64,000 bases of DNA from Rhodopila globiformis (GTDB lineage: Bacteria > Pseudomonadota > Alphaproteobacteria > Acetobacterales > Acetobacteraceae). A program made the position numbers and the translations under genes. The stretch is from contig NZ_NHRY01000272.1 in NCBI RefSeq assembly GCF_002937115.1, positions 62,001-126,000 on the forward strand, written 5' to 3'. Below the pieces are notes generated by a model that made no database searches, was not told the origin of the DNA, and saw only the letters and a list, made by a program, of their open reading frames with translations. Positions 16,356 through 20,576 of this stretch are shown in pieces; positions within the stretch are counted from its first letter, which is position 1; each line of letters begins with the position of its first letter.

Positions 16356-17228
16356 CTACCCCAGCACCCGCCCGGCAACCACCGACAGCTTGGCAGCAAG
16401 CGCCGGATCGCGCATCGACGGCGCGGTGATCACCGCATTGTCCAGCGCCCGGTCGCAGCCGCAGGGGCACAACGCGCGCGGCTTGCCAAGTTCCGGCACG
16501 GCCGCCTGAACCAGGCCGCGTGCCTTGTCGGCATTGCCCAGCAGCACCTGCACCACGGCCTCGACCGTCACGTGGTCGTGGTCGGGGTGCCAGCAGTCGA
16601 AGTCGGTGACCATGGCCACGGTGGCGTAGCAAAGCTCCGCCTCACGCGCCAGTTTCGCCTCCGGCATGTTGGTCATGCCGATGACGCTGCAGCCCCAGCT
16701 GCGGTACAGCTCGCTCTCCGCCTTGGTGGAGAACTGCGGGCCTTCCATCACCAGGTAGGTGCCGCCGCGGGTCACCGGCAGCGACAGTCCGGAAGCCGCG
16801 CCGTGCAGCGCGTCGCCCAGGCGGTTGCACACCGGATGCGCCATCGAGACATGCGCCACGATGCCGTCGCCGAAGAAGGTCTTCTCCCGCGCGAAGCTGC
16901 GGTCGATGAACTGGTCCACCACGACGAAATGCCCGGGCGGCAGCTCCGCCTTCAGGCTGCCGACCGCCGACAGCGACAGCACGTCGGTGACGCCGCAGCG
17001 CTTCAGCGCATCGATGTTGGCGCGGTAGTTCAGGTGGGTGGGAGAGGTCGGATGGCCTCGCCCGTGGCGCGGCAGGAACACGCACTGAATCCCTGCCAGC
17101 CGGCCGAACATCAGTTCGTCCGACGGGTCGCCCCAGGGGGTTTCGACCCGCCGCCAGGTTTTGTCCTCCAGCCCGTCGATATCGTACAGGCCGGAGCCGC
17201 CGATGATCCCGATGACAGGCTGGATCAT
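16356..17228 (-). CDS. mtnP: S-methyl-5'-thioadenosine phosphorylase
   Basis: A 290-residue purine-nucleoside-phosphorylase-family enzyme. It begins MIQPVIGIIGGSGLYDIDGL, with FLPRHGRGHPTSPTHLNYRA (phosphate and substrate loops), GTYLVMEGPQFSTKAESELY and SVIGMTNMPEAKLAREAELC (the methionine-rich base-binding region). It splits methylthioadenosine into adenine and methylthioribose-1-phosphate for methionine salvage. I chose the ATG at 17228, which has a GGGGAG box about 8 bases upstream; earlier in-frame starts overlap petC. It follows petC by 17 bases and may share its transcript. Confidence 0.94.
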   Translation of the reverse strand: MIQPVIGIIGGSGLYDIDGLEDKTWRRVETPWGDPSDELMFGRLAGIQCVFLPRHGRGHPTSPTHLNYRANIDALKRCGVTDVLSLSAVGSLKAELPPGHFVVVDQFIDRSFAREKTFFGDGIVAHVSMAHPVCNRLGDALHGAASGLSLPVTRGGTYLVMEGPQFSTKAESELYRSWGCSVIGMTNMPEAKLAREAELCYATVAMVTDFDCWHPDHDHVTVEAVVQVLLGNADKARGLVQAAVPELGKPRALCPCGCDRALDNAVITAPSMRDPALAAKLSVVAGRVLG

Positions 17229-17245: not shown

Positions 17246-18034
17246 TCAATGCTCGACGTTGGCCCAGACCTTGCGCTTCACCGCGTAGGTCAGGCCGGTC
17301 ATGAAGATCAGGAACAGCACGATGCGCACGCCCATCTGCTTGCGCTCGACCATTTCCGGATTGGCCGCCCAGGCCAGGAACGTGACGACGTCATGCGCTT
17401 CCTGGTGCAGGGTGGCCTTGGTGCCGTCGGTGTACTGCACCGTGCCGTCCTGCAGCGGCGGCGGCATGGCGATCCGATGGCCCGGGTACATCGTGTTGTA
17501 GTACTGCCCGGGCTGCAGCTTGAACCCGGCGGGCGCATTCACGAAGCCGGTGAGGATGCCGTAGACATAGTTCGGCCCGCCTTCCCGCGCATTGACCATC
17601 ACCGACAGGTCGGGTGGCACGGCGCCATTGAACACCGCCGCCGCCGCCGTGGCGTTCGGGTAGGGTGAGCGGAACTCACTGGCCGGCAGCGCCGGGCCTT
17701 CCTTCGGATTGCCCTGGTCATCCAGCCCCAACGGCACGGTGAACTGTGCCGCGAACGCCTTGATCTGCTCCGGCGTCAGGCCGATGCCGGCCAGGTCGCG
17801 GTAGTGCAGGAACTTCAGCGAGTGGCAGTTCGAGCAGACCTGGCCGTAGATCTGCAGGCCGCGTTGCGCGGCCGCCAGGTCGAACGTCCCGAACGGGTTC
17901 TCGAAGCTCCAGGACTCATTCGGCATCGTGGCTTCATCCTGCGCGAAGGCAGGGGCTGCCAGGGGAACTGCCAGGGGGGCTGCCAGCAGGGTCGCGGCGA
18001 ACGCGCCTGCCAGGAGGGTACGCAGCTTGGCCAT
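17246..18034 (-). CDS. petC: Cytochrome c1 subunit of the bc1 complex
   Basis: A 262-residue protein with a signal peptide (LLAGAFAATLLAAPLAVPLA), a c-type heme site CSNCH at residues 67-71, and YPGHRIAMPPPL carrying the axial Met. A C-terminal membrane anchor (VRIVLFLIFMTGLTYAVKRK) follows. Cytochrome c1 passes electrons from the Rieske centre to soluble or membrane cytochrome c. The ATG at 18034 shares a base with the petB stop (TAATG), so the two are coupled. The operon is petA (remnant), petB, petC. Cytochrome c1 itself looks intact. Confidence 0.95.
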   Translation of the reverse strand: MAKLRTLLAGAFAATLLAAPLAVPLAAPAFAQDEATMPNESWSFENPFGTFDLAAAQRGLQIYGQVCSNCHSLKFLHYRDLAGIGLTPEQIKAFAAQFTVPLGLDDQGNPKEGPALPASEFRSPYPNATAAAAVFNGAVPPDLSVMVNAREGGPNYVYGILTGFVNAPAGFKLQPGQYYNTMYPGHRIAMPPPLQDGTVQYTDGTKATLHQEAHDVVTFLAWAANPEMVERKQMGVRIVLFLIFMTGLTYAVKRKVWANVEH

Positions 18035-19308
18035 TACGCTTTCTCCATCGGCTTGGCCGCGGCGCCGGTCGGCAGGGGGCCACCGCCGCGAGGGCCGACA
18101 ACGGGATGACTGATGCTCTCGGGCAACGGCAGCGGCCGCTCCAGCTTGCCGAGAATCGGCATGATCACCAGGAACTGGGCGAAGTAGTACAGCGTGCCGA
18201 TGCGGCTGAGCGTCACCCAGATGCCTTCCGGCTTGTGCGCGCCGCAGGCGCCCAGCACGAGGCAGGCCAGCACCCAGACGAACAGCGTCGGGCGGTACAG
18301 CGGCCGGAACCGGCAGCTGCGCACCTTGGAGGTGTCCAGCCAGGGCAGGAAGAACATGATGATCAGCGAGCCGAACATCAGGCAGACGCCCAGCAGCTTG
18401 TCCGGCACCGAGCGCAGGATCGCGTAGAACGGCAGGAAATACCACTCCGGCACGATGTCCGCCGGCGTCTGCATCGGGTTGGCCTGGATGAAGTTGTTCG
18501 GATCGCCCAGGTAGTTCGGCGCGAAGAAGATGAAGATCGCGAAGATCGTCAGGAACACGCCGATGCCGACGCTGTCCTTGATCGTGTAGTACGGGTGGAA
18601 CGGCAGCGTGTCCTGCGGTGACTTCACGTCGATGCCCAGCGGGTTGTTCGACCCGGTGATGTGCAGCGCGGCAACGTGCAGGAAGATCACGCCCACCAGC
18701 ACGAACGGCAGCAGGTAGTGCAGCGCGAAGAACCGGTTCAGAGTCGGGTTGTCAACGCTGAAGCCGCCCCACAGCAGGGTGACGATCTTCGAGCCGACAA
18801 CCGGGAAGGCCGAGAACAGGTTGGTGATGACGGTCGCACCCCAGTACGACATCTGGCCCCAGGGCAGCACGTAGCCCATGAACGCGGTCGCCATCATGAT
18901 GATCAGGATCACCACGCCCAGCATCCACAGCAGCTCACGCGGGCTCTTGTACGAGCCGTAGTACAGGCCGCGGAAAATGTGGATGTAGGTGACGATGAAG
19001 AACATCGACGCGCCGTTCTGGTGCGTGTAGCGCAGCAGCCAGCCGTAGTTGACGTCGCGCATGATGTGCTGGACCGAGGCGAACGCCAGATCCGCATTCG
19101 GCTGGTAGTTCATCGCCAGGAAGATGCCGGTGACGATCATGATGATCAGCACGACCATCGCCAAGGCACCGAAGTTCCAGAAATAGTTGAAGTTTTTCGG
19201 GGTCGGGAAGACCCCGTACTCCTTCTGCATCATCGTGAAGACGGGCAGACGGGTGTCAATCCAGCGTATCACCGGATTGTCGAACTCGCTTTGATGGAGG
19301 CCGGCCAT
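18034..19308 (-). CDS. petB: Cytochrome b subunit of the bc1 complex
   Basis: A 424-residue polytopic protein spanning the full cytochrome b family. It includes [20 protein letters not shown], the [20 protein letters not shown] helix, the ef-loop [19 protein letters not shown] (PEWY quinone-site motif), and paired heme-ligating His in the second and fourth helices. It binds hemes bL and bH and both quinone sites. The sequence is intact, with normal C-terminal helices. It lies 36 bases after the petA remnant and overlaps petC by one base. Confidence 0.97.
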
Positions 19309-19344
19309 ATTTGTTTCCCTGTCACGGGCGGACGTTTGATCGGA

Positions 19345-19488
19345 TCAGCCGATCTTGATCTGGTTGTTGTTGAGCAAGGCGCCCATGCCGACGGCGGTGC
19401 CAGCGGGGGCGACCAGTTGCAGCAAATTGCGCTTTGATAATTTTCCGGGCGGGCCGGAACGGATTGAAACAGCGGCGGAGTCGGCCAT
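19345..19488 (-). pseudogene. petA: Internally deleted Rieske iron-sulfur protein gene (petA remnant)
   Basis: The 47-codon frame begins MADSAAVSIRSGPPGKLSKR and continues NLLQLVAPAGTAVGMGALL. This is the Rieske N-terminal Tat/anchor region. It then jumps straight to NNNQIKIG and a stop, which looks like the extreme C-terminus of a bc1 Rieske protein. The roughly 130-150 residues between them are missing, including both CTHLGC and CPCHGS [2Fe-2S] motifs. The frame is preserved across the junction. It occupies the petA position directly upstream of petB, has a GAGGGA box and a proper start. A bc1 complex built from this gene could not oxidise quinol. A tiny unrelated membrane peptide is the alternative, but the position argues against it. 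Confidence 0.72.
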
Positions 19489-19691
19489 TCTTTCCCTCAG
19501 GTTACCGTTTCAGCCAGGGCGCACGCACGTCCGGCCGCGAGCCCGCCCTGCGACCGGCTCGAACACCAATCTGTTACTGACCGGGTTGCCCCGGGCTTGG
19601 AACCTGGGCAGTCTAGAGAGCGGCCCAGCCCCCTGCAACGCAACAGGAAGGATGTGGGGTTATCGCGACTACAGCCCAGGAACAAGCCCTG

Positions 19692-20576
19692 ATGCCCGAA
19701 AATTTTAGCCTGCCGCCGCATGAGGCGATGAAACAAGCTGCACGTGCCTGGTTCGAAACCTTGCGGGACAGAATTTGTGCAGAATTCGAAGCCATCGAGG
19801 ACGAATGTACCACCAGCCGCCCCGCTGGCCGGTTCGAGCGCTCGGCCTGGAGCCGCCCGACCGAGGACGGCTCGGACGGCGGCGGCGGCGTCATGAGCGT
19901 GCTGCGCGGCCGGGTGTTCGAGAAGGTCGGCGTCAACGTCTCCACCGTGACGGGCGAATTCAGCCCCGGCTTCCGCGCGCAGATCCCCGGCGCGGCCGAG
20001 GACCCGCGGTTCTGGGCCAGCGGCATCAGCCTGGTGGCGCACATGCAGAGCCCGAAGGTGCCGGCGGCGCATTTCAACACACGGATGCTGGTCACCACCA
20101 AGGGCTGGTTCGGCGGCGGCGGCGACCTGACGCCGATGCGGCCGGAGACTCCGGAAGCCCGGGAAGACGCCGCGGACTTCCACGCCGCTTTCCGCGCCGC
20201 GTGCGATCGGCATGACTCTTCTTATTATGAGACCTTCAAGGCCTGGTGCGACCGCTATTTCTACCTGCCGCACCGGCAGGAGCCGCGCGGCGCCGGCGGC
20301 ATCTTCTTCGACCAGCACGCCTCCGGCGACGCCGAGGCGGACTTCGCCTTCGTGCGGGACGTTGGGGCGGCGTTCCTGGCGGCCTATCCCCGGATCATCC
20401 GCCGGCGCATGGCCGCGCCCTGGACGCAGGAGGACCGCGACCACCAGCTTGTCCGGCGGGGCCGCTACGTCGAATTCAACCTGCTGCACGACCGTGGGAC
20501 GATCTTCGGGTTGCAAACCGGCGGCAACGTCGAGGCGATCCTGATGAGCCTGCCGCCGGAGGTGCGCTGGCCGTAG
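19692..20576 (+). CDS. hemF: Oxygen-dependent coproporphyrinogen III oxidase
   Basis: A 294-residue protein with the HemF core: [58 protein letters not shown] and FDQHASG, ending [19 protein letters not shown]. HemF decarboxylates two propionates of coproporphyrinogen III with O2 to make protoporphyrinogen IX, in heme (and bacteriochlorophyll) synthesis. It is the aerobic enzyme; the oxygen-independent HemN is not in the window. It is divergent from petA with a 200-base gap that must hold both promoters. Confidence 0.96.

Follow-up and report, generated by a model that had tools for sequence, protein, structure and literature searches.

The window (the whole stretch of 64,000 nucleotides of Rhodopila globiformis DNA that was analysed) contains a cytochrome bc1 operon with intact petB and petC genes. 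The petA position before petB is occupied by an open reading frame of 47 codons, in which the head and the tail of the operon Rieske gene are fused in frame (Table 1). The divergent neighbour is hemF. The spacer that follows hemF displays a 17-base direct repeat.

Table 1. Features of the bc1 locus (window positions) and long-type Rieske genes found elsewhere in the genome (contig positions)
Feature	Position	Strand	Remarks
petC, cytochrome c1, intact	17246..18034	-	262 aa; CSNCH, AMPPP
petB, cytochrome b, intact	18034..19308	-	His 96, 110, 197, 211; PEWY at 287
petA-petB spacer and petB ribosome-binding region	19309..19344	-	ACAGGGAAACAA; relatives similar
petA remnant, operon Rieske head and tail fused in frame	19345..19488	-	47 codons and stop
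Remnant C-terminal part	19345..19371	-	NNNQIKIG and stop; homologous to operon Rieske end ESDTKIK(I/V)G
Remnant N-terminal part, Tat/anchor region	19372..19488	-	39 codons, KRNLLQLVAPAGTAVGMGALL; homologue in relatives: KRDLLQLIA.AGAAIGAGAIAW
Former petA leader with ribosome-binding site	19489..19516	-	28 bases, GAGGGAAAGA
hemF, coproporphyrinogen III oxidase	19692..20576	+	divergent neighbour
17-base direct repeat, two copies	20607 and 20689		CGTGGCCGGGCGTGTCC
Long-type (ISP2) petA	C106:5176-5907	-	205.9 bits; CTHLGC and CPCHGS
Long-type (ISP2) petA	C157:4539-5198 (L016:4539-5198)	-	203.6 bits; CTHLGC and CHCHGS
Long-type (ISP2) petA	C269:101232-101879 (L017:6233-6880)	+	205.5 bits; CTHLGC and CHCHGS

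The petA remnant

In the alignment, residues 1–39 of the remnant match the Rieske N-terminus of relatives and the last eight residues match their common C-terminus. Compared with the 188-codon copies of the genus, 141 codons (423 bp) are gone in frame; short-type copies in the genus are 182–195 codons long, with starts chosen by script. A blastn comparison with the locus of a relative (L117, genome G017) gives two collinear blocks at window positions 19558–19374 (E = 1.2e-22) and 19367–19202 (E = 6.8e-51), between which there are 6 bases in the window versus 425 in L117. Since two collinear blocks flank the gap, the resemblance is not due to chance. With L117 as the reference the break is inside positions 19367–19374, and no microhomology is evident by eye at the joint.

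Both CTHLGC and CPCHGS, the cluster motifs of a bc1 Rieske protein (TIGR01416), are absent from the 47 residues, and the peptide is unable to bind a [2Fe-2S] cluster. The peptide shows no Pfam or NCBIfam family at E ≤ 10. Because these models miss it, its identity rests on the alignment, i.e. the homologous N-terminal anchor and C-terminal end, and on its location at the petA position before petB. Searched against a plasmid collection, the 47 residues had a single match, weak and unrelated (E = 8). The 47-codon frame is what an internal deletion of about 420 bp, present in the assembly, has left of the operon petA. The original prediction was of a 47-codon in-frame petA without either motif, of a precise internal in-frame loss of about 400 bp and of intact petB and petC next to it. 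It is borne out by the reading of frame and motifs, by the alignment with relatives and the blastn comparison, and by the conserved features of PetB and PetC.

The remnant lacks one aspartate that is found in 38 of 38 intact copies compared (the search term required that Asp; no sequence was omitted for want of it). The hydropathy of its anchor is 1.37 versus 1.67–2.04, which is below all 34 short-type copies of the genus. The former petA leader has 2 differences in 28 bases from that of L103; more distant members of the genus are less similar but have the GAGGG core.

In a first test over 21 codons, the remnant has the highest mean pN of 39 sequences (0.329; others ≤0.309). In a second test over 19 codons (the 21 less the two at the joint), restricted to copies from the genus (n = 35), its pN is outside the six highest and its pN/pS, 0.54, is second of 35, the median being 0.38. 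Relaxed selection on the remnant is not claimed, as the 19-codon pN/pS is matched by that of the intact L121 (also 0.54). Compared with three sister operon genes the remnant displays a pN of 0.30 and a pS of 0.48–0.54; among themselves these three genes display a pN of 0–0.025 and a pS of 0.36–0.42.

petB and petC

The genome search finds one petB and one petC. The four histidines of PetB listed in Table 1 are presumably the haem ligands, judged by their spacing. Four PetB residues are unique to the window among 32 aligned sequences (31 of 33 relatives were readable), and one of these is a Met in the ANP-x-TP segment ahead of PEWY. Co-adaptation of PetB to a different Rieske partner was considered and rejected: the same Met occurs in other genomes with a normal operon, and the count of unique residues is unremarkable (L019 also has 4 and L111 has 10).

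The operon in related genomes

A Rieske gene adjacent to petB, on the same contig and strand, is found in 31 of the 32 other genus genomes. The sole exception is G005 (80% complete), where neither gene was found. Among these genomes the loss of the operon Rieske is thus confined to R. globiformis. What the 31 relatives have at the site is the full operon gene, to which the remnant is homologous at both ends. Among 80 named loci found with PetB, 77 display a Rieske motif directly upstream of petB; two of the other three have fewer than 135 bases upstream, and L033 has 4,950 bases upstream with no motif. The operon Rieske was also read at L115, L119 and L121.

Genomes G006, G017, G019, G023 and G027 have long copies together with the operon gene. 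R. globiformis groups with G019, G023 and G027 in the petB tree (100/97). The simplest order is that the long genes predate the deletion, because the closest relatives by petB hold both the operon gene and long copies.

G019, G023 and G027 also have a second, diverged petA-petB pair (L167, L168, L169) beside the normal pair. Its Rieske protein has 182 residues (GSQF).

Long Rieske genes elsewhere in the genome

A search of the genome with the TIGR01416 profile, which has an equivalog cut-off of 97.4 bits, gives three genes above the cut-off, on contigs C106, C157 and C269 (Table 1), and a further, weak match on C61 that falls short of it. The three encode proteins of 212–219 residues (starts chosen by script), all of which retain the four cluster ligands (two Cys, two His), the second Cys pair, the Ser and the Tyr. 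The anchor model PF10399 is matched in the C106 and C269 copies, the two scanned with Pfam. Among solved structures, the best sequence match of the C269 copy is to a Rieske protein of bc1 (8smr chain C, E = 4.6e-53). The broader model PF00355 has 17 matches genome-wide. The weak match on C61 (L018, contig positions 16807–17016, + strand) belongs to a Rieske-like protein of 205 residues with CTHMQC and CPCHQS.

Cytochrome bd subunit I has three matches in the genome, two of them across the full model. The original prediction held that a second Rieske gene or an alternative quinol oxidase would be needed; the genome has three complete bc1-type Rieske genes and, from these matches, candidates for the oxidase as well.

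No respiratory-complex subunit is found among the eight proteins tested that neighbour the C106 and C269 genes. Among the matches listed, the CoA-transferase neighbour of the CPC-type C106 gene is kept in G006, G017, G023 and G027, the peroxiredoxin neighbour of the C269 gene is kept in G019, G023 and G027, and the C157 locus displays no clear neighbour in common with relatives.

In a tree built from 83 of the proteins, the three long copies cluster with the long form, which is split from the operon form with 100/100 support, although the split carries a long-branch warning. Left out of the tree were L022 (a cut Rieske, also left out of the alignments), L193 (no motif by script), L194 and L195. 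The long copies of the genus are of two kinds, CPC and CHC, and each kind forms a five-member group in the tree with support of at least 99/96. Of the 121 distinct Rieske proteins read, five have CHCHGS where the others lack it, in place of CPCHGS, and all five are from the genus (L016, L017, L163, L164, L165). A search for the CHCHGS pattern in 299 genomes of the family, seven of them of the genus, shows a Rieske-type loop in R. globiformis alone. Three other genomes with the pattern, from one other genus, were not counted; the codon after FCHCHG starts with TG there and so does not encode Ser. None of the 20 loops read at long-type loci of the family is of the CHC kind. According to passages in PMC10715153, Phe generally replaces Tyr165 in the long ISP, whereas Tyr follows CxCHGS in all 10 of the long copies read from the genus.

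Long petA genes apart from petB are common in the family. A Rieske match is present in 133 of 150 family genomes sampled: 93 have the short type only, 38 the long type only (R. globiformis included) and 2 have both. The classes are defined by match length with an author-set limit of 525 nt, matches below the model cut-off being excluded; by length, the short class includes one match of 522 nt (G148) and the two fragments of G108. Of 21 long-type loci read in the family, 17 are without petB on the fetched stretch, some of these stretches being cut by contig ends.

Genome and organism

The assembly comprises 278 contigs totalling 7,248,147 bases, with an estimated completeness of 98.55%, so that a piece may be absent from it. 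Reaction-centre genes are found on two contigs, with two matches each, and a PufM stretch agrees with chain M of 7XXF in 253 of 253 residues. The 7XXF entry is the LH1-RC structure determined for Rhodopila globiformis DSM 161, which was grown phototrophically in anoxic light (PMC9640540). Judged by this identity, the source of the DNA is the cultured acidophilic purple bacterium, i.e. the DSM 161 isolate and no metagenome bin. Its electron carriers are described as having high potentials of about 400 mV (PMC7005127).

Origin of the remnant and source of the Rieske protein

The preferred explanation, with a probability of about 0.8, is that the 47-codon frame is a petA scar from the deletion of about 420 bp, and that the long ISP2 genes, present earlier, would supply the bc1 Rieske protein in trans. 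Supply in trans is supported by the gene counts, a single petB and a single petC against three genes that score as TIGR01416 equivalogs, and by the growth of the organism in anoxic light, since phototrophic growth of this kind requires a working quinol-cytochrome c oxidoreductase. The neighbours kept at the C106 and C269 loci, the frequency of long petA apart from petB in the family and the exchangeable Rieske subunits described for other species are further points in favour of the preferred explanation. The one bc1 complex most likely takes its Rieske subunit from at least one of the three long genes. In the proposed order of events, the long copies would already have been in the genome before the deletion and would have rendered the operon petA dispensable, after which the operon gene lost its middle. 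The long Rieske proteins would then assemble with PetB and PetC and carry electrons. The leftover frame may at most couple petB translation to the old leader, or it may do nothing. Overall, the locus probably records a swap of the operon gene for Rieske genes from another lineage and not the breakdown of the electron-transport chain. What weighs against the preferred explanation is that the remnant is open and in frame with its start site intact, and thus does not look like the product of long decay. The fragmented draft, the lack of a respiratory-complex subunit among the eight neighbours tested of the C106 and C269 genes, and the C157 locus with no clear neighbour in common with relatives also count against it.

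The same open frame and conserved start site would suit a functional microprotein, either a bc1 peptide that spans the membrane once or a leader peptide to which petB translation is coupled. A precedent is the 22-residue membrane peptide of R. globiformis, LH1 gamma-like and overlooked in annotation, which is described as a genuine LH1 subunit and whose gene was placed on NZ_NHRY01000272.1 (PMC9640540). This origin of the frame is nevertheless improbable, as the site has a full Rieske gene in 31 of the 32 other genus genomes (one having neither gene), and the remnant has lost the conserved Asp and has an anchor hydropathy under that of all short-type copies. The latter two properties also bear on the still smaller chance of an artefact, in which the strain would have a normal operon petA and some 420 bp would be missing from the draft through sequencing or assembly. 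The fragmentation of the draft and the near-universal presence of the operon gene in the genus agree with an artefact; however, loss of letters from a normal petA would not yield the loss of the Asp and the low hydropathy. In addition, the sequence is that of an isolate, the site is inside a 128-kb contig, and no operon-type Rieske piece is found elsewhere in the assembly by TIGR01416.

The least probable reading is a deranged bc1 complex that is non-functional and kept for structure, with quinol oxidised by bd oxidases. The cytochrome bd matches are in its favour, as is the precedent of Acidiphilium and Acidocella, where Rieske or haem ligands are described as lost (PMC10715153). These deranged systems share with R. 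globiformis an operon without its own functional Rieske gene; their remaining proteins, however, have also lost haem or cluster ligands. In R. globiformis the four His and PEWY of PetB and the CSNCH and Met region of PetC are all kept, and the three long Rieske proteins have all cluster ligands.

As an extension of supply in trans, the CHC-loop paralogues perhaps tune bc1 to the high-potential carriers of an acidophile, while the old petA frame still drives petB translation. This is rather unlikely; because the carrier potentials are high, redox tuning by the CHC loop is at most worth a test. If true, CPC and CHC Rieske heads would be interchangeable in one bc1 complex, and such a complex would be new.

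Under the preferred explanation, a subunit central to catalysis in a complex of both respiration and photosynthesis would have been replaced, while its old gene can still be recognised and relatives display the prior state. As a phototroph in culture, R. globiformis would also allow tests of whether bc1 can work with a Rieske protein from a different lineage and of how a His in the cluster loop affects the redox potential.

Comparison with known systems

Multiple exchangeable Rieske genes are said to have been described in Rubrivivax gelatinosus and Rhodospirillum rubrum by Ouchane in 2005 and by Schneider and Schmidt in 2005. Passages in PMC6256036 (for Rubrivivax also PMC4013037) describe the subunits as exchangeable or redundant. 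Common to these species and R. globiformis is an extra bc1-type Rieske gene outside the operon, redundant there and presumably so here. As described in those sources, however, both species keep one copy in the cluster, whereas the operon copy of R. globiformis is gone.

Split petA/petBC arrangements in Lichenicoccus, Lichenicola and acetous taxa, as well as a long ISP in Rhodopila, are already known from passages in PMC10715153. As far as that source and PMC4013037 describe the split systems with long ISP2 of acetous Acetobacteraceae and the Lichenicoccus group, these have in common with R. globiformis a petBC without a working petA and a lone long Rieske gene elsewhere. R. globiformis differs in that a recognisable 47-codon remnant is still present, and it has three long copies, two of them with CHCHGS, in which the Tyr is kept. 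A report of the remnant or of the CHCHGS loop did not turn up in the open literature searched.

A separate loss is seen in a lichen-associated Rhodospirillales contig (L033:3746-4951), where a frame that resembles hemF by eye adjoins petB. Unlike R. globiformis, this split case displays no Rieske-like frame between the two. Above the cut-off, the L033 genome has a single Rieske gene, which is of the long type and is located away from petB.
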